Assembly (NCBI GenBank): GCA_029907715.1
Contig: JARYLI010000001.1
Coordinates: 62,001-126,000, forward strand
DNA: 64,000 nucleotides
Origin: Methanothrix sp.
GTDB taxonomy: Archaea; Halobacteriota; Methanosarcinia; Methanotrichales; Methanotrichaceae
Direction of reading: 5' to 3'
Part shown: positions 6,442 through 52,539 of the stretch, one piece after another
How positions within the stretch are numbered: position 1 is the first letter of the stretch
Layout of the letters: every line of letters starts with the position of its first letter
Position numbers and translations under genes: made by a program
The notes under the pieces: generated by a model
Seen by the model: only the letters and a program-made list of their open reading frames with translations
Database searches by the model: none
What the model was told of the DNA's origin: nothing

Positions 6442-6839
6442 CCCGACCTTTTACTGCGGTGTGCTTGCATCTGACTTAACTTTAGTGCTGGAAGTGGGCG
6501 CCTGGAGATGGGGAACAGGTGTGATTCGGTCCTGGGCTCGAGATCGATCGCATGTGGCATTCCGCAGAAGTTGTGTGCTGCATCATTGAATCCAGAAGCA
6601 TGCGACATTATGAGATTCATGTGGCGTTATACCAGTACAGAATCCTGGCCAGTTCAGCTATGCCAGTTCAGCTATTCGAGTACACGACCTCCGCATAGAC
6701 ATTGGGTTTTTACGCTGTGAACATGTATTCCAGGATCTCCGCCGATCAGAGGGCTGAGTTTTGCGGGTGACGCTTGCTCTATCGAAACTCTCGCAGATGC
6801 ACCGATACTCTTTATACCCGGAAGTCCTCCCGGTAACCT
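6442..6839. other. Intergenic region, no gene seen
   Basis: Divergent spacer between the flavoprotein and the beta-helix gene. It holds the TATA box at 6810-6817 and a short direct repeat (CAGTTCAGCTATGCCAGTTCAGCTATTCG) near 6650-6678. No convincing coding frame or RNA gene. Confidence 0.5.
6810..6817 (+). promoter_or_regulatory. TATA box for beta-helix protein gene
   Basis: CTTTATAC lies 23-30 nt before the ATG at 6840 with no clear Shine-Dalgarno sequence between them. This spacing predicts an essentially leaderless mRNA. Confidence 0.6.
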
Positions 6840-8786
6840 ATGCACATGCGATATGCACTCTGTCTTCTGATGCTCCTCCTAAATGCATCGGCACACGCAG
6901 AAACCATTGTGGTGACGCCCGGGAGCAGCATCCAGGCGGCGGTAGACTCGGCATCATCCGGTGATACGATAGAGATTCAGGGTGGCATCTACTCGGAGAG
7001 AATCGTGGTGGATAAGAGCCTGATCATCAGGGGAAACACCACATCCGGATATCCTGAGGTGAATGCAGGCGGATCCGGAACGGCTGTTACGATCTCTGGA
7101 AGTGACGTGGTGATCGAGGGGATCAGGGCGACCGGCTCGGGGATGGCCTCAATGGATGCAGGGATACTCGTCACTGGAGATAACAACCGCGTTATCGACT
7201 GCCAGGTCTCCGGCAACAGATATGGGGTCGCGCTGCTCTTCGCGGAGGGCTGCACGCTTGAGAACATACTGGTTGAGGCTAGCAGCGAGGCAGGCATCCT
7301 CCTCGACAACTCCACAAACAGCATAATCAGTGGATGCAGGCTGGAGAACAACATCCGCGGCATAAGACTGATATCATCCGAGTCAAACACGGTGAGAGGA
7401 AACAGCATATCCAACACCACCTTCGAGGCCCTCTCTGTGGAGAGATCCAGCAACAGGAATCTCATCGAGGATAACGTCATCAGATTCAGCCAGATAGGCA
7501 TCTCCCTGGAGACCTCCAGGGGCAACAACATAACCAGGAACCTCGCCAGCAACAACAGCATCGGGATAAAAATAGCAAATCGCAATGACACGGAATCCAT
7601 CCGTCCAATTGAGAATCCGGGCAAGTACGGCGGAGTCTCAATAAAGTACAAGCCGAACAGCGATATCGAGAACTACGACGTCCGGGACAAAGATCTGAGC
7701 TTATACACGACCAACACGATCTACAACAACACGCTCATCGACAACGAGGAGAACGCCATCGATGACGGGAACAACCAGTGGGACAACGGCGCTATCGGGA
7801 ACCACTACAGTGATTTCGATGAGCCTGAGGAGGGGTGCAGGGACAGAAATCGCGATGGCATATGCGACTCGGCCCGTGAGATCGAGGGCGGAATGTCAAC
7901 AGACAGGCATCCGCTCTCGCCGAAGGATCCGATGAAGGCCAGATTCATGTCCAGGAAGAATGGCGCGTACCTCGGCCTGGACAGGATGGTGTTCATGCCC
8001 GGTGAGAGGATCGATCTGAGGCTGTCGGTTCCTGAGAATCTCACCGCCTGGATAGGAATACTGCCCGCAGGCGAGCCCCATGGTGCTCCCGACAGGACAA
8101 AGGCGGTATCGTACAGCACCGCGAACAGCAGTGTGAGGGAGATGGCTCTCGAGGCTCCGAGGATGGTGGGGTTCTACGAGATACGGATGTACTCCACGGA
8201 GGAGCTGGTGAGTCTCCCCATAAGCGTTGAGGTGCCTGAGGTCCACATCACACCTGCAGAGGTCAAGGCATGCGAGCCGATCAATGTCACATACTCAGGA
8301 GCTCCGGGATACGAGGGCGACTGGATAGGAATGTTCTCCACAGGGGCAGGGGATCGCTCGCCGTTATCCAGAAAATACCTCGACGGGAGCACGAACGGCT
8401 CGTTTGTGCTGTACACACCAAGCACCCCGGGGACTTACAACGTGCGGATGTTCGCGGACGACGGCTACAGACTCCTTGCGGTCAGCGAATCGGTGACAGT
8501 TAAGCCGAATGCAGGGGTGAGGATAGTCGCGGAGCCCGAGACCGTCTCGCCAGGCCAGGCGATATACGTGCACTTCTGGGGTGCGATGCCTGATAGCGTA
8601 ATAGGGATGTATGGTGTGACAAGGCCGGACAAATTCTGGATAAATATGCAGCCGACAGGCGGGCCGTCATGCGGCACCCTGACATTCAGGGCTCCATACG
8701 GCGGGGGCAACTATGACTTCAGGCTGTTTGAGAACAACGTCTACAGGAAGCACATGGGTGCCAGCAACGTCGTGCGTGTCGTGTAG
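6840..8786 (+). CDS. Secreted NosD/PbH1 parallel beta-helix protein
   Basis: The 648-residue exported protein has a signal peptide (about 1-20), then a right-handed beta-helix with repeated rungs such as NTVRGNSISN and NLIEDNVIRF (about 25-310), as in NosD/PbH1 carbohydrate-binding proteins. At about 330-345 a DRNRDGICD loop resembles a calcium-binding dockerin-type loop. The C-terminal part (about 370-648) contains three diverged repeats of some 85-90 residues, each with a W/V-IG-I/M core (AWIGILP, DWIGMFS, SVIGMYG) and ending in a yDfRlF-like strand, probably Ig-like modules. Likely cell-surface or sheath-associated. The ligand is unknown. Confidence 0.85.
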   Translation: MHMRYALCLLMLLLNASAHAETIVVTPGSSIQAAVDSASSGDTIEIQGGIYSERIVVDKSLIIRGNTTSGYPEVNAGGSGTAVTISGSDVVIEGIRATGSGMASMDAGILVTGDNNRVIDCQVSGNRYGVALLFAEGCTLENILVEASSEAGILLDNSTNSIISGCRLENNIRGIRLISSESNTVRGNSISNTTFEALSVERSSNRNLIEDNVIRFSQIGISLETSRGNNITRNLASNNSIGIKIANRNDTESIRPIENPGKYGGVSIKYKPNSDIENYDVRDKDLSLYTTNTIYNNTLIDNEENAIDDGNNQWDNGAIGNHYSDFDEPEEGCRDRNRDGICDSAREIEGGMSTDRHPLSPKDPMKARFMSRKNGAYLGLDRMVFMPGERIDLRLSVPENLTAWIGILPAGEPHGAPDRTKAVSYSTANSSVREMALEAPRMVGFYEIRMYSTEELVSLPISVEVPEVHITPAEVKACEPINVTYSGAPGYEGDWIGMFSTGAGDRSPLSRKYLDGSTNGSFVLYTPSTPGTYNVRMFADDGYRLLAVSESVTVKPNAGVRIVAEPETVSPGQAIYVHFWGAMPDSVIGMYGVTRPDKFWINMQPTGGPSCGTLTFRAPYGGGNYDFRLFENNVYRKHMGASNVVRVV

Positions 8787-9076: not shown

Positions 9077-9223
9077 CGCTCTTATGCATCCAGCAACTTG
9101 GAGGTCATGCGGTAGGTTGCTGAATGCACTCATTCTCCAAGGCATTCGACTACGTCGAAGATAAGTCGAAACGAGCGCATAGCATGACTTTTCTTCGGGC
9201 AGGAGATCAGATGGATAAGAGCG
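9077..9223 (+). mobile_element. E1 element copy c, long form (147 bp)
   Basis: Termini CGCTCTTAT and ATAAGAGCG with 8-bp duplications AACCGGGA at 9069-9076 and 9224-9231. It is longer than most copies because of an extra internal segment with a TTCGACTACGTCGAA palindrome. The copy at 21.68 kb shares this, so there are at least two subfamilies. Confidence 0.87.
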
Positions 9224-19092: not shown

Positions 19093-19482
19093 TTCTGAGC
19101 CGGAGTTTCACAGCGCTTCTGAGCTAACAGTATGCTGCGCAGCTGTAGACGTTCCGCGTCTGACCATACCGCTCGCCACAGAAAACTGTATATCATTTGG
19201 ATGGGATGTATAGAAGCACAGCTTCCGGATGCACCCTGGCATGCGAGAGATCTCTCTGCGAGCGCTGAAAGTTTCTGCAGTGAGTGATATTCGTCATGCA
19301 TAACGGTGTTTGTGTGATGGATGCGCATTGCAGCGAACTCAATGCGGTGGATGATCGTGGTTGTGTTCGAAGTTATCACTGCTGTACGGGCATGCGGGTT
19401 ATGATGCTGGACAGAGCCCCGGCAGCGCGGATCGCGCAGCTGGATGAATTCATATCGTATCTTGCTTGTGGAGGTCACTTGG
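19093..19482. other. Intergenic region, no supported gene
   Basis: Spacer between the thioesterase and aconitase. A 72-codon Cys-rich frame at 19284-19502 exists but has no ribosome site or family resemblance and overlaps the aconitase start. GGAGGT at 19471-19476 serves the aconitase ATG at 19483. Confidence 0.45.
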
Positions 19483-21423
19483 ATGGGATACACCCTGACT
19501 GAGAGGATCCTTAGGGATCATCTTGTTGATGGAACATATGAGCCGGGAAACGAGATCGGCATAAGGATAGACCAGACCCTGACACAGGATGCGACCGGCA
19601 CCATGGCCTATCTTCAGTTCGAGTCGATGGGTCTGGAGGGGATAGCCACAGAGCTGTCTGTGAGCTATGTTGATCACAACACGATACAGGTCGGGTTCGA
19701 GAACGCGGACGATCACAGGTATCTCCAGTCGGTCGCTGAGCGCTACGGCATATACTTCTCACGCCCGGGGAACGGCATATGCCACCAGGTGCATCTTGAG
19801 AGATTCGGGCGCCCCGGAAAGACGCTGCTGGGGTCTGACAGTCATACTCCAACGGGCGGCGGGCTGGGTATGATAGCAATAGGAGCAGGCGGGCTCGATG
19901 TGGCTGTCGCCATGGGCGGCGGGCCTTACTACCTGACAGCTCCAAGGGTGATGGAGGTGCATCTCACAGGGGAGCTCCAGCCCTGGGTAACCCCGAAGGA
20001 TGTCATACTGAAGGTCCTGCAGATACTCTCAACAAAGGGGAATGTGGGGTGGGTCTGCGAGTACACAGGGGATGGAATTGCTGGGCTCACCGTGCCCGAC
20101 AGGGCAACGATCACGAACATGGGCGCTGAGACGGGCGTCACGACATCGATATTCCCGAGCGATGAGCAGACGAGGAGGTTCCTGGCAGCCCAGGGCAGGG
20201 CAGAGCACTGGGTGCCGTTTGCCCCTGACAGGGACGCCACTTATGATAAGAGCATCGAGATCGATCTCTCGGAGCTGGAGCCGCTTGTTGCAGCACCCCA
20301 CAGCCCCGGGAACGTCATCCCGCTGAGCAGTGTGGTGGGCACTCCTGTGGATCAGGTGCTCGTCGGCTCGTGCACGAACTCATCTTACACAGATATGATG
20401 AGAGTTGCGAAAATGGTTAAAGGCAGACATCTTCCTGCAAACGTCAGCTTCGGAGTCGCCCCTGGATCGAGACAGGTTCTGAGGATGATGGCCAGGAATG
20501 GCGCCCTTGACGATCTCATAGCATTCGGCGCTAGGGTACTCGAGAGCGCCTGCGGCTTCTGCATAGGCAACAGCATGTCGCCTGGCACGGATGCCGTCTC
20601 GGTCAGGACGAGCAACAGGAACTTCAAGGGCAGATCAGGGACTCCGAGCGCAAATGTTTACCTGACGAGCCCTGTGGTTGCAGCTGCAGCCGCAATAAAG
20701 GGCGAGTTTGTGGATCCATCCGATCTGAACATGGAGTTTCCAAGGGTGGAAATGCCGGAGAGGTTCGAGATAGACGACAGCATGATCATCCCTCCGAAGC
20801 CTGCTGAGGAGAGAGCCGGAGTCAGGATATTCCGGGGTCCGAACATAGGAGAGCCGCCGCGGAACACCCCGATGCCTGAGAGCATAGATGGAGCTGTCAC
20901 CATAAAGGTCGAGGACAACATAACTACGGATCACATAATGCCGGCCGGATCGAGACTGAAGTACAGGTCGAACGTCCCGAAGTACTCGACGTTCGTCTTC
21001 GAGCCGCTTGATCCTGAGTTCTCCAGGAGAGCTGCTGAGAACCGTGATAAGGGGCTGCACAACATCATTGTTGCTGGGGTGAGCTACGGCCAGGGATCGT
21101 CCAGGGAGCACGCTGCGATGTGCCCGATGTATCTCGGGGTGAAGGCGGTCGTGGCGAAGTCCATAGAGAGGATACATGCCGCAAATCTCGTGAACTTCGG
21201 GATACTGCCACTATACTTCGTCAGGGAGTCTGATTACGGTATCATCGAGCAGGGCATGAGCATGAGATTGCCTGGTATAAGAAAGGCCCTGGAGAGTGGG
21301 GAGTCTGAGGTGAAGGCGATCGCCGGCGATCGCGAGATCCCGCTCCGGATGGAGCTGAGCCGGCGGCAGAGGGAGATACTGCTTGCAGGAGGTCTGCTTC
21401 CATACACGGTTAGGGGAGGTTGA
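19483..21423 (+). CDS. acnA: Aconitate hydratase
   Basis: This 646-residue enzyme isomerises citrate and isocitrate with a 4Fe-4S cluster, here for glutamate biosynthesis through a partial citric acid cycle. Signature motifs: LLGSDSHTPTGGGLG (first aconitase motif), LVGSCTNSSYTDM and SACGFCIGN with the cluster cysteines, and the C-terminal swivel domain with GVSYGQGSSREHAAM. The length and single-chain order match the compact archaeal/bacterial aconitase form rather than split LeuC/LeuD. The ATG at 19483 is chosen because GGAGGT precedes it by 6 nt; an upstream ATG at 19444 lacks this. Two micro-ORFs follow. Confidence 0.93.
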   Translation: MGYTLTERILRDHLVDGTYEPGNEIGIRIDQTLTQDATGTMAYLQFESMGLEGIATELSVSYVDHNTIQVGFENADDHRYLQSVAERYGIYFSRPGNGICHQVHLERFGRPGKTLLGSDSHTPTGGGLGMIAIGAGGLDVAVAMGGGPYYLTAPRVMEVHLTGELQPWVTPKDVILKVLQILSTKGNVGWVCEYTGDGIAGLTVPDRATITNMGAETGVTTSIFPSDEQTRRFLAAQGRAEHWVPFAPDRDATYDKSIEIDLSELEPLVAAPHSPGNVIPLSSVVGTPVDQVLVGSCTNSSYTDMMRVAKMVKGRHLPANVSFGVAPGSRQVLRMMARNGALDDLIAFGARVLESACGFCIGNSMSPGTDAVSVRTSNRNFKGRSGTPSANVYLTSPVVAAAAAIKGEFVDPSDLNMEFPRVEMPERFEIDDSMIIPPKPAEERAGVRIFRGPNIGEPPRNTPMPESIDGAVTIKVEDNITTDHIMPAGSRLKYRSNVPKYSTFVFEPLDPEFSRRAAENRDKGLHNIIVAGVSYGQGSSREHAAMCPMYLGVKAVVAKSIERIHAANLVNFGILPLYFVRESDYGIIEQGMSMRLPGIRKALESGESEVKAIAGDREIPLRMELSRRQREILLAGGLLPYTVRGG

Positions 21424-21522: not shown

Positions 21523-21615
21523 TTGGAGGCTGCTGAGATACTGTTCTACGTGATAGTTTTCCTGATCGCCTACATGATCGCCAGGATCATCATGAAGATC
21601 ATGAGGGGATACTGA
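21523..21615 (+). CDS. 30-residue single-pass membrane micro-protein
   Basis: A TTG-started frame encodes a peptide with an acidic N-terminus (EAAE), a hydrophobic helix ILFYVIVFLIAYMIA and a basic tail RIIMKIMRGY, the layout of a one-pass membrane peptide with a cytoplasmic positive end. GAGGGGG at 21508-21514 is a fair ribosome site. A perfect 10-bp hairpin starts two bases after its stop, consistent with a real transcription unit end. No family is recognised. Confidence 0.5.
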   Translation: MEAAEILFYVIVFLIAYMIARIIMKIMRGY

Positions 21616-21642: not shown

Positions 21643-21810
21643 ACGATGAATACCGGCATGTGTGGCAGCTGGAGGAATTCACTCTTATGTATTCAGCAAA
21701 TTGGAGGATGTGCATACTGGTTGCTGAATGCACTCGTTCCCTCGCCATGCCTTCGACTGCGTCGAAGATAAGTCGAAACGGGCGCATAGCATGACTTTTC
21801 TTCGGGCAGG

Positions 21811-22047
21811 GTATTTGCTCAATATCGTGAGCTTATAGTATTCCGCATAAGTTGCTATAATATAGCATTTCACATAAAATCATCTATGAAGTATGACATA
21901 TCCAGTAGATTTTAAATGGATTTACATGAAGTGACGCAAAGGACTATAATTGAGTTACTGCTCAAGTGAAGCCACTATCATCGGGCATGGTCGTTGATCC
22001 AGAAATCCGCCAAGAGGGCAATTTACCTTAACGTATTGAGCATGTTC
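21811..22047 (-). mobile_element. E2 element copy b inside E1, interrupted by E3
   Basis: Ends GTATTTGCTCAATA and TATTGAGCATGTTC, flanked by 8-bp duplications CGGGCAGG (21803-21810 and 22048-22055) made from E1 sequence. Without the E3 insertion it is 124 bp, equal to the other E2 copies. Confidence 0.88.
21836..21946 (+). mobile_element. E3 element inside E2 (111 bp)
   Basis: Sequence from TAGTATTCCGC to GGACTA flanked by TA on both sides. Comparison with uninterrupted E2 copies supports a TA target duplication. It is base-for-base identical to the copy at 52316-52426 as read here, so one or both moved recently. Confidence 0.85.
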
Positions 22048-22121
22048 CGGGCAGGACATCAGATGGATAAGAGCGGAGGAACTTTGAGATCCTCAGACTC
22101 AAAGTACGCTCAAATTGGAGA

Positions 22122-23252
22122 TCAGCATATCCTTCTGTACAGCGTATCCCTCTGCACCGGTACTCTACCGTGCCTCTTTATGAGATCCTGAAACTCAGCC
22201 GGAGACATGTACTGCCCCTCTCTGGATCCGGCGCATCTGGATATGTTCTCCTCCATGAGCGTCCCCCCGAGGTCGTTGGCGCCCCATTCCAGTGCCGCTC
22301 CTGCGACAGTCCTGCCTAGCTTCACCCAGCTCGCCTGGATGTTCGTGATGTACGGATAGAGCGCCACTCTTGCGAGCGCGTGCATCTTGAGGTTCTCGAG
22401 GATGCCCGGAGGCGATGAAATCCTTCCCAGAGCCGTGTTCCCGGGGACGAAGGGCAGCAGCACGAACTCTGTGAACCCTCCGGTCTCCATCTGTATCGAT
22501 CTGATGACCTCCAGATGGCTCAGCCTCTCCTCGAAGCTCTCGATATGGCCGTAAAGCATGGTCGAGGTCGTGGGTATGCCCATGGTGTGCGCAGATCTTA
22601 TTATGAATGACCACTCCGCGGTGCTGAGCTTGTCCGGGCAGATCACCCTCCTCACAGAATCGACCAGCAGCTCGGCTGCTGTCCCGGGCATCGAATCGAG
22701 GCCAGAATCCTTTAAGGAGCGGAGGGCGTCCTGGACATCGACGCCGGAGCATCTCGACATGTGCATCACCTCCATGGGAGAGTACGCGTGGAGGTGCATC
22801 CGAGGGAAGTTTGATTTGAGAACCTCAAGAATCTCGCAGTAGCTCTCCACGGTGAGTCCCGGCGCAAGCCCCCCCTGGAGGCACAGCTCAGTGGCGCCCA
22901 TCTGCTCAGCCTCCGCTGCCCTCTGAACGATCTCCTCATGTGTGAGGATGTAGCCATCACTCCTCCTGAACGCGCAGAACCTGCAGCTTCCCACACAGAT
23001 GTTGGTGAAGTTGATGTTTCTGTTTATGACATATGTCACCTCCCTGCCGCAGCAGCTCTCCTGAAGCATGCGGGAGAGGGAGAAGAGCCTCATCGGGCTT
23101 CGCCAGAGGGATTGCATGAGGTTGCGATTCAGAGCTGCATGGTCCCTTGAATCGCTCAGGATGCCCTCGCAGATCGGATCATTCAGAGCATTCGTGTTGC
23201 GTGTCTCCAGGCTGTGCATGATGTTCCGGAGCATGTTGATCATCAACCTCAA
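22122..23252 (-). CDS. cofH: FO synthase subunit 2 (radical SAM), coenzyme F420 pathway
   Basis: CofH joins tyrosine to the flavin precursor in the first step of FO, the chromophore of F420. Radical SAM motif CVGSCRFC (CX3CX2C) follows INRNINFTNI; then GATELCLQGGLAPGL, YSPMEV and MLYGHIES match CofH/MqnC-type enzymes. The 376-codon frame begins inside the end of the upstream gene; likely starts are ATG 23243, 23234 or 23219. The companion cofG is not in this window. Its stop lies 46 bp from the E1 copy e right end. Confidence 0.9.
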   Translation of the reverse strand: MRLMINMLRNIMHSLETRNTNALNDPICEGILSDSRDHAALNRNLMQSLWRSPMRLFSLSRMLQESCCGREVTYVINRNINFTNICVGSCRFCAFRRSDGYILTHEEIVQRAAEAEQMGATELCLQGGLAPGLTVESYCEILEVLKSNFPRMHLHAYSPMEVMHMSRCSGVDVQDALRSLKDSGLDSMPGTAAELLVDSVRRVICPDKLSTAEWSFIIRSAHTMGIPTTSTMLYGHIESFEERLSHLEVIRSIQMETGGFTEFVLLPFVPGNTALGRISSPPGILENLKMHALARVALYPYITNIQASWVKLGRTVAGAALEWGANDLGGTLMEENISRCAGSREGQYMSPAEFQDLIKRHGRVPVQRDTLYRRIC

Positions 23253-32571: not shown

Positions 32572-34898
32572 CAAACTGCACCTGCGCATCTTTTTCTAAG
32601 CAAATCGAATATCGTGTTCATCCTCTGGATTCTCTCCCGCTCTCTTTCAAGCTGAACGAGAAGCACGGGAAATACTGTGAATGTTGTGATAAGAGCGAAT
32701 ATCACAGCCAGCACGGTCACTGTGCCGAAGTTGTTGGTTATGACGAATGGAGATGTTATGAGTGCCCCGAAGCCGAAGACCGTGGTCAGGCCGGATGCAA
32801 CCAGCGCGGATCCTATGCTCGACGATGCCTTCGACATCGCCTGGTCGATATCATTGCACCTCTTGAGCTCCTCGTAGAACCTCTCCATCATGAGTATGGA
32901 GTACTCAGAACCCACACCCAGGATCAGGGCTCCCAGCGTCGCAGTCAGCGGGGTGTACTTCATGCCGGTGACATACATCACCCCGCCCATCCAGCCTATC
33001 ACGACGAGCATTGGCAGGACCGGCACAATCGCCTTTATCAGATCCCTGTATATCAGGAGGAGCATTAAGAATATCACGACCAGCCCGAAGAGGGTCATCT
33101 CTGTCCTCCCGGTGGTGAGCGCCTCGATCACTGTCGTCATCACAACCAGGTTGCCTGTTATCACAACGCCGGTTCCAGGAGGCACGCCAAACCACTCGAC
33201 GTCCCTGTACATTTCTTTTATGAGACGGTCGACCCCCTCTTCCCCAAGGTCCCGCAGCGCGTTGCCTATGTTGATGTCCATTACGGCTGTGTCATGCCCG
33301 TCTATGTACCTGTCTTTCATCGAAGATGGCATTATGCTGAGCAGATATCTTGTTGAGGTCGCGTCCTCTGGTATGGAGCCGTTGTTCAGCATTCTCATAT
33401 AGCCGGCAACGCTGTTGACGTAGTACACCTGCTGCCTCGACTCCGTGATGTAATCTCCGAACTCGTTCATCCACTCCAGCATCTTCGGATCTGTTATGTC
33501 ATCTCCCTGGACGATTATGTTGAGCTCATCGCTCCCTCCGAATATGTCGACGAGGTGCCTGAACTGGACCAGGGGAGGAAGATCCTGAGGCATGTAGTTC
33601 TTGAAATCCGTATCCACAGGAACTAGGGTATCGGAGTAAACCCCTGCAAGCGACAGAAGCAGGGCGAGCAGGATTATCAGAGTCCCGCGCCTGAGCGAAA
33701 ACCTGACGATGAATCTTACAGCTCTGCCGATGGTCGTCTCACCGACCGTGCTCTCAGATGCATCAGCTCTCTTCCTGTTCTTTCTGTTGTTTCCGCTCCT
33801 CTCCGCAGCGTAGAGAACCGTTATCCCAACAAAGAGGGCTGAGATGTAGCACATTATGAGCCCTATGAGACACAGGACCCCGAACTCCCTGATCATGGGC
33901 ACGGTTGAGGTGAAGAGCGAAAAGAATCCAGCTGCTGTTATCGCCAGCGCTATCAGGACCGCCGGCGCGGTGTGGGCCACGGTCTCAACGACCGCTTTTT
34001 TTATCGACCCTCCCTTCGAGAACTCCTCCTCGATCCTGTTGTGGAACTGTATCGCATAATCTATGCCGATGCCGATGAGTATCGGGAATGCCGACATCGA
34101 TATCATAGTCATCGGGATGTGAAGCAGCCCCATTATCCCGAATGTCCAGATTATGCCCAGAAAGACTATCGGCAGGGGGAGGAGCGGCCAGTTGACATGA
34201 CGGAAGACGAGCAGAAGCGCCAGGATCATGAGGACGCCAGATGCGCCAAGCAGGCTTGCATTGCTCTTGGACATCTCATTCTTTATGGCCACACCAAGCG
34301 CTGCATTTCCTGTGACTATGACGCCCACCCCTGGGGGAAACTCGGCCATGGCCACCGCTCTCTCGGTCTCGCGCAGGACCTCCTCGCGCTCCCCCTCCGT
34401 GAGAGTGAGCGGTATCTCTATCGAGAGTATCGTGTGCCTTCTGTCCGGAAGTATGTTCTGCAGCATCCTGGCATCCCCTTTGAGCAGGAGCGTGTCTATC
34501 GCGCTCTGTTCATCTGGAATGTATCTCCTTCCTATCTCCCTCTCTGCAGCGATCTTTATGATCTGCGATATGCCCGTGACAGAGATGACATCCGGCACAG
34601 ACTCCATCTGCACAGCAAGCCTGTCCATCGCCTTCAGGACCTCAGGAGCTGTCACATCATCTCCCTCGATCACCACAGTTATCGACTCTGTTGCGAACCG
34701 CTCCTTGAAGAGGTGCTCATAGGTCTGGTACAGCATCGATCCCTTGTCCACAAAGTCCTCTGTTCTCATCCCATGCATCTCGATCTGCTGGGCGTAATGA
34801 AGCGACAGAAGTGTGAGAAGAACTGCAGCGATGAGTATGAGCTCAGGATTCTTTGCGATCCAGCAACCAAGCCGCTCTTTTCTGTCTATGGGCCTCAC
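32571..34898 (-). CDS. RND/MMPL-superfamily membrane exporter
   Basis: This 775-residue transporter has the duplicated six-helix plan: TM1 near residue 20, a large external loop (about 45-215), five helices (about 220-370), then a repeat with TM7 near 405, a second loop and helices to about 760. FPILIGIGIDYAIQFHNR and ALILGVGSEYSILMMERF are the paired TM4/TM10-type motifs with the charged residues used in proton coupling. Likely substrates are lipids or hydrophobic compounds. GTG start at 34898; a regulator gene diverges from it with 81 bp between. Confidence 0.92.
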   Translation of the reverse strand: MRPIDRKERLGCWIAKNPELILIAAVLLTLLSLHYAQQIEMHGMRTEDFVDKGSMLYQTYEHLFKERFATESITVVIEGDDVTAPEVLKAMDRLAVQMESVPDVISVTGISQIIKIAAEREIGRRYIPDEQSAIDTLLLKGDARMLQNILPDRRHTILSIEIPLTLTEGEREEVLRETERAVAMAEFPPGVGVIVTGNAALGVAIKNEMSKSNASLLGASGVLMILALLLVFRHVNWPLLPLPIVFLGIIWTFGIMGLLHIPMTMISMSAFPILIGIGIDYAIQFHNRIEEEFSKGGSIKKAVVETVAHTAPAVLIALAITAAGFFSLFTSTVPMIREFGVLCLIGLIMCYISALFVGITVLYAAERSGNNRKNRKRADASESTVGETTIGRAVRFIVRFSLRRGTLIILLALLLSLAGVYSDTLVPVDTDFKNYMPQDLPPLVQFRHLVDIFGGSDELNIIVQGDDITDPKMLEWMNEFGDYITESRQQVYYVNSVAGYMRMLNNGSIPEDATSTRYLLSIMPSSMKDRYIDGHDTAVMDINIGNALRDLGEEGVDRLIKEMYRDVEWFGVPPGTGVVITGNLVVMTTVIEALTTGRTEMTLFGLVVIFLMLLLIYRDLIKAIVPVLPMLVVIGWMGGVMYVTGMKYTPLTATLGALILGVGSEYSILMMERFYEELKRCNDIDQAMSKASSSIGSALVASGLTTVFGFGALITSPFVITNNFGTVTVLAVIFALITTFTVFPVLLVQLERERERIQRMNTIFDLLRKRCAGAV

Positions 34899-34952
34899 CC
34901 GCTATGATTTGATATGTACAGAGATTACAGAACGTGCAGTTTTTACGAAAAG

Positions 34953-34959
34953 TATTTAA
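34953..34959 (+). promoter_or_regulatory. TATA box of divergent regulator gene
   Basis: TATTTAA preceded by CGAAAAG (BRE-like purines) lies 21-27 nt before ATG 34980, predicting a leaderless transcript. Confidence 0.6.
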
Positions 34960-34979
34960 CGCTTCCGGCTCAGGTTCGG

Positions 34980-35489
34980 ATGATGAACCGGGATATCGAG
35001 GAGATCAGGAGATACATCACGGATGCGTGTGTTCAGATCGCGAGAATGCGGGGGTACAGCGATGCGCTTGGGGTGCTGAGGGGAATTCTGATGCTCTCTG
35101 AAACACCTCTGTCCCTTGATGATCTGGTCGAGCTCACCGGTTACAGCAAGTCCACCGTGAGCACGAACATGAGCATTCTTGAGGGCCTCGGCGTTGCGAA
35201 GAGGGTGATAACGCCAGGAGAGAAGAGGTACAGATACATACCGGTGACCGACACAGACATGCTCAGAAATGCGATGATGAACCACGTCAGGAGGGAGATC
35301 AGCACGCTCATGTCGGCGCTCGATCGTGCGGAAAAAGCGCTTTCATGCGCTGATAGCCCGGAGGCAGGGCAGATCAGAGAGAGGATCAACGGGATAAGGA
35401 ACTTCTACAGCAAGACAGACCGTCTTCTGAACCTCATACAGAAATACGATGTCGACAGGCTCATTGAGATCCTGGAGAGGAGCGGGTAA
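34980..35489 (+). CDS. GbsR/MarR-like winged-helix transcription regulator
   Basis: About 169 residues. Helix-turn-helix LSLDDLVELTGYSKSTVSTNMSILEGLGVAKR (about 38-70), a wing strand with EKRYRYIP, and a C-terminal dimerising helical region (about 95-169), the GbsR arrangement. ATG 34980 is chosen from its TATA spacing; 34983 is an alternative. The divergent position next to an RND exporter, with only 81 bp between, suggests it represses that exporter and itself, as many MarR-type proteins do. Ligand unknown. Confidence 0.82.
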   Translation: MMNRDIEEIRRYITDACVQIARMRGYSDALGVLRGILMLSETPLSLDDLVELTGYSKSTVSTNMSILEGLGVAKRVITPGEKRYRYIPVTDTDMLRNAMMNHVRREISTLMSALDRAEKALSCADSPEAGQIRERINGIRNFYSKTDRLLNLIQKYDVDRLIEILERSG

Positions 35490-52203: not shown

Positions 52204-52315
52204 AATGATGGATGAGATCGCTGCGTATTTCTACTTTTGGGATAATGACATCTGGAGTTTCGCATTTGTGGTCAGCAACTTTATCTCATGCGGGCTGATT
52301 GGGGGATGCATATTA

Positions 52316-52426
52316 TAGTATTCCGCATAAGTTGCTATAATATAGCATTTCACATAAAATCATCTATGAAGTATGACATATCCAGTAGATTTTAAATGGA
52401 TTTACATGAAGTGACGCAAAGGACTA
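52316..52426 (+). mobile_element. E3 element copy (111 bp)
   Basis: TAGTATTCCGC to GGACTA, flanked by TA on both sides (52314-52315 and 52427-52428). Identical to the copy nested at 21836-21946. An internal TGCTATAATATAGCA palindrome lies near its left end. Confidence 0.85.
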
Positions 52427-52539
52427 TAACTACCGGGAGAGCGTAGCAGGACCAATATGTCTGAGGATTCCATTTACACGTATCTTCATCTCGGCATCTG
52501 GCTTTGATTGTTTATCTGGCATATTTGGAGCCAAAATTT

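Follow-up and report, generated by a model that had tools for sequence, protein, structure and literature searches.

The window analysed here, a stretch of 64,000 nucleotides from the 2.0-Mb genome of a Methanothrix species (G000), contains two convergent genes, which we take to encode an aconitase-like protein and a CofH-like radical SAM protein. The gap separating them, between 19444..21423 (+) and 22122..23252 (-), is occupied by three short elements, E1, E2 and E3, one nested within another. The features of the locus are as follows, in window coordinates.

19444..21423, + strand: neighbour gene, open frame, presumably aconitase-like
21672..21679, no strand: left 8-bp target duplication of E1, GAGGAATT, found once at the empty site in congener G003
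21680..21810, + strand: left part of E1, subtype E1b, including the left CGGGCAGG (21803-21810); 85-87% identical to window 9077-9221 and C3:142743
21811..21833, + strand: left part of E2, with terminal repeat GTATTTGCTCAATATCGTGAG
21834..21948, + strand: E3 with its TA duplication on both sides, core 21836-21946
21949..22047, + strand: right part of E2, last bases ...TATTGAGCATGTTC
22048..22075, + strand: right-hand CGGGCAGG (22048-22055) plus the right end of E1
22076..22083, no strand: right 8-bp target duplication of E1, GAGGAACT
22122..23252, - strand: convergent neighbour gene, open frame, presumably CofH-like

Downstream of the aconitase-like gene, the gap also holds a 30-codon frame with a TTG start (21523-21615, + strand; LEAAEILFYVIVFLIAYMIARIIMKIMRGY). 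This frame is kept in all five congeners examined, with mostly synonymous changes, and is likely to encode a small membrane protein.

E1 spans 21680-22075, begins with CACTCTTATG, ends with ATAAGAGCG, and is flanked by GAGGAATT/GAGGAACT, an 8-bp duplication with one mismatch. Within it lies E2 (GTATTTGCTC...GAGCATGTTC, 21811-22047), bordered by an exact 8-bp CGGGCAGG at 21803-21810 and 22048-22055; this duplicated octamer is itself E1 sequence, and other E1 copies read CTTCGGGCAGG at this position. E3 (TATAGT...ACTATA, 21834-21948) splits E2 in turn, with TA at 21834 and 21947. Excision of E2 together with one copy of its duplication restores an E1 of 151 bp, 87% identical to C3:142743 and 86.7% identical to window 9077-9221, and excision of E3 restores an E2 of 123 bp, the same length as intact E2 copies. 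An earlier note on this DNA had described E1 as split by E2 and E2 by E3, with duplications made of E1 sequence around E2 and TA on both sides of E3, and this description proves true to the base; the restored bodies, put there at about 150 and 124 bp, match intact copies. Since each family is multi-copy, the E3-in-E2-in-E1 nest is far beyond chance.

We compared the locus in five congeners (G001-G005), including a single-contig assembly of 1,879,471 bp (G005) that we take to be Methanothrix thermoacetophila PT. The locus is empty of E1, E2 and E3 in all five. In the nearest congener, G003, the flanks are 92-93% identical and the would-be target reads GCTGGAGGAATTTTTGGAGCTC, in one copy. Because the site is empty in every congener, the nest most simply arose within the lineage of this species, after its split from G003, and its history within that lineage is most simply either three insertions, or E1 followed by E2 and E3 in one. 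The earlier note had looked to related genomes for empty, singly filled and doubly filled versions of the locus; the empty version was found (5/5), and no singly or doubly filled orthologue of the nest occurs among the five congeners. Elsewhere in the gap between the aconitase and cofH genes, G003 (L056, contig C82) and G005 (L059, contig C1) each carry a different single E1-family element, and these have their own duplications, TCAGCATA and ACCGAAGT, and are independent insertions.

The three elements belong to separate families, as the earlier note had proposed, and these families are unrelated. E1 (123-151 bp), E2 (123 bp) and E3 (115 bp) have no transposase frame, carry terminal inverted repeats at both ends (E1 CGCTCTTAT..., E2 TGCTCAATA...TGAG, E3 TATAGT...), and have fixed target duplications in many copies (8 bp for E1, 8 bp for E2, TA for E3). 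An exact-pattern search of the own genome marked 162 sites with E1 ends and 80 with E2 ends, against 0 for each reversed-pattern control. For E3, 70 distinct near-full-length copies were collected across the genus; TA lies at both borders in 59/59 scored copies, namely those having intact ends, and TTAA is preferred (25/59). A fourth family, E4, has ends CATTGGTCATCGG/CATGCGTCATCGG, a length of ~190 bp and duplications of ~10 bp. Being short, gene-less and multi-copy, with terminal inverted repeats and fixed target duplications, E1, E2 and E3 are MITE-like, non-autonomous elements of three unrelated families. Three E3 copies are 100% identical to the E3 of the nest over 115 bp (window 52314-52428, C4:127934-128050 and G003:C59:8014-8132), the last of them in G003, a species with ~7% divergence in the flanks of the window locus. 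Such identity across species would reflect recent activity or interspecies transfer.

The earlier note also held that the nesting fixes the order of insertion. This stands in part: the nesting places E1 before E2 at this locus and E2 before E3 somewhere, but does not in itself prove that E3 arrived after E2 had entered E1. The same note had named recurrence of the composite at other loci of a related genome as the sign that it moved as one unit. Half of this occurs, and in the own genome, where a search recovered a second E2 carrying E3, at C1:152984-153206, in the same TA and the same orientation, but outside E1 and with an E3 of another clade; by itself it would fit that sign for the two inner levels of the nest. 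This second case is bordered by its own 8-bp duplication GAGATAAC/GAGATACC and has lost 10 bp from its right end; in G003 the corresponding site is empty. Among the matches listed in the own genome there is no further copy of the E1-E2 junction, and the exact E2-E3 junction has no match in GTDB genomes, a search that possibly left the records of the own genome outside.

Two histories compete for these observations. Either E3 entered the E2 of the nest at this locus, or an E2 already bearing E3 moved as one piece, into E1 or out of this locus to C1:152984, and gene conversion by another E3 copy afterwards replaced one of the two E3s, so that the order here could be E1, then E2 and E3 together. 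The second history, which we consider rather unlikely though still credible, predicts that the two E2 hosts should be nearest relatives, and they are (96% identical), although the support for this grouping, 87/76, is not strong; among E2 copies, only these two carry TTAA at the site and share GAGCTTAATTGAG. Moreover, at an E3 occupancy of intergenic TTAA that we estimate to be of the order of 2% per site, two hits in the same orientation on sister E2s are not cheap, and this counts against a history of three insertions. On the other hand, the E3s of the two hosts differ at 9/115 positions and each is near-identical to E3 copies elsewhere. The E3 of the nest groups with four other E3s, three of them identical to it (support 99/86), whereas that at C1:152984 groups with C14:17432 and C5:123862 (99/91), and forcing the latter into the former clade costs 19 lnL units (AU p = 0.027, an optimistic value, as the groups were picked after inspection of the tree). 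Movement as a unit would require a conversion tract that spans the whole of E3 and ends close to either border. In addition, E3 favours the very TTAA that the two hosts share: a target model built from other E3 copies places 95% of the within-E2 weight on this single TTAA, so a repeat hit is expected there. A precedent for such repeat hits is E1, which occupies one and the same 8-bp target of E4 at two loci. Because the E3 clades differ and the TTAA holds this weight, it is plausible that the two cases are independent E3 insertions at the same TA, and the second E2 with E3 is weakened as a simple proof of unit movement. Measured against its nearest copy, E1 diverges by 13%, E2 by ~4% and E3 by 0%, with E1 copies sampled in part only; this points the same way, agreeing with E1 as the oldest and E3 as the youngest. 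We therefore regard the order E1, then E2, then E3 as the probable one at this locus.

With the same degree of confidence, we explain the locus as a three-level nest of MITE-type elements built by three successive insertions. E1 landed first, via an 8-bp staggered cut between the convergent genes, as recorded by its duplication and the five empty congener sites. E2 then landed in E1, again via an 8-bp staggered cut, leaving the exact E1-derived duplication, and E3 entered E2 at TTAA, with duplication of TA. That E3 was the last to arrive, and did so here and not as a passenger of E2, is suggested by the E3 phylogeny and the divergence values. As E1, E2 and E3 code for no protein, their movement would presumably depend on transposases acting in trans. 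The dense nesting calls for no special mechanism, and would follow from insertion being limited to a small intergenic space.

A census of nests in contig C1 (330 kb) for the four families is in keeping with such a limit. The contig holds 45 sites of these families, amounting to 2.1% of its sequence; with an intergenic share of 13.3%, taken from a crude count of open frames, the families fill ~16% of intergenic space. Approximately 9/54 elements (17%) are nested, against the ~16% of intergenic space that is made of elements, so nests are about as frequent as they should be when insertions persist in intergenic DNA alone. Other three-level nests are E1 > E4 > E3 (C4:127790-128230) and E2 > E4 > E1 (C1:131653-132095), and further pairs include E1 in E3, E1 in E2, E1 in E4, E2 in E4, E4 in E2 and E3 in E1. 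The nest at 21672-22083 is not special in its own genome and represents ordinary transposon biology, and because the families insert into each other both ways, no general ranking of their ages follows from this locus. A single E2 copy elsewhere (G000:C9:8190-8568, L267) carries two separate E1 insertions.

Exact target positions within host elements are occupied more than once: E3 lies twice at the same TA of E2, plausibly through re-use, and E1 twice at one target of E4. In the latter case, E1 sits at the same 8-bp E4 target (TTGGACTT/AAGTCCAA) at C1:52456-52579 and C1:131883-132006, in opposite orientations and as different E1 subtypes. It is possible, and we advance it only tentatively, that in this genus MITEs serve as landing pads for repeated insertion, with sister E2s that gained a TTAA being hit twice and independently by different E3 lineages, at one dinucleotide and in one orientation, and one E4 target twice by E1. 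If so, nests would form by predictable, sequence-driven re-targeting and not as single historical events, and a shared nested arrangement would be no proof of common descent.

The search for autonomous parents covered two transposase families, PF01609 and PF13358, and among these no parent of E1, E2 or E4 was found. Two extant insertion sequences sit between E1 or E2 ends and encode transposases, an IS5-family element at C12:3598-4866 and an IS630-family element at C7:65530-66833, which would suit a reading of E1 and E2 as internal-deletion derivatives of them. We consider this very improbable, as both elements behave as guests and not as parents. Homology between the C7 element and copies in G005, G002 and isolate SKW87, which have no E2 ends, ends at positions 67/68 and 1247, which are precisely the points at which the E2 halves start; the C12 element, a transposase remnant, starts at position 57 within the E1 halves and has its own ends (GAGGATTCCTAT), and the same end occurs without E1 at window 52463-52539. 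An E2 pair at C3:94632-96016, considered as an autonomous element, consists of two complete E2 copies face to face with other sequence between them. As observations in their own right, the remnant of an IS5-family end at window 52463-52539 lies between an E3 and an E2 copy, and the transposase of the C7 element (G000:C7:65530-66833; L138:1302-2605) is spread over two frames that meet at an A8G run (...ATTGAAAAAAAAGAGC), an arrangement that fits programmed -1 frameshifting, in which case the element may be intact.

For E3, the ends show partial similarity to those of an intact IS630-family element of 354 amino acids in G002 (L143:911-2024), which resemble the TATAGT..CGCATAA.. of E3. The likeness is confined to the terminal ~25 bp, and the interior of E3 does not derive from that element by internal deletion. 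Given these ends and a TA duplication, which E3 shares with elements of the IS630/Tc1-mariner type, E3 was most likely mobilised by an IS630-type transposase.

Short, intergenic and furnished with inverted repeats, the elements could be read as structured regulatory RNAs or REP-like hairpins and not as mobile DNA. This reading is hardly tenable: an Rfam search with E values up to 1 gave no match, and the empty sites, the clean target duplications and the insertion of the families into one another mark them as mobile; as a full account it is ruled out by the duplications and empty sites, with a later function being possible.

A study that annotated 30 archaeal genomes de novo (PMC3852290) dealt with archaeal MITEs and nested elements ('Russian dolls'), and nesting of prokaryotic elements is already known from that work. 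Like the MITEs described there, E1-E3 are short, without a gene, bounded by terminal inverted repeats, flanked by fixed target duplications, multi-copy and mutually nested; in contrast, our search of two transposase families recovered no autonomous parent of E1, E2 or E4. In the searched papers, nothing was found on MITEs of Methanothrix or on these families. The exact re-use of targets inside host elements is a more interesting residue than the nest itself. From this locus a likely order can be read for three insertions in a single species lineage. With four MITE families, 2-Mb genomes and empty orthologous sites, the genus offers a compact system for studying insertion rates and target choice in archaea. 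Two cautions follow for the reading of such loci: identical nested junctions at two loci are no proof that a composite has moved, and insertion sequences lying between MITE ends can be guests that resemble parents.

Finally, on contig C15 (G000:C15:33480-33691 and 34707-35104; L096:5478-5691 and 6705-7104), E2 copies lead into head-to-tail repeats ~92 bp long, in which the initial ~25 bases of E2 are missing, a MITE turned tandem array.
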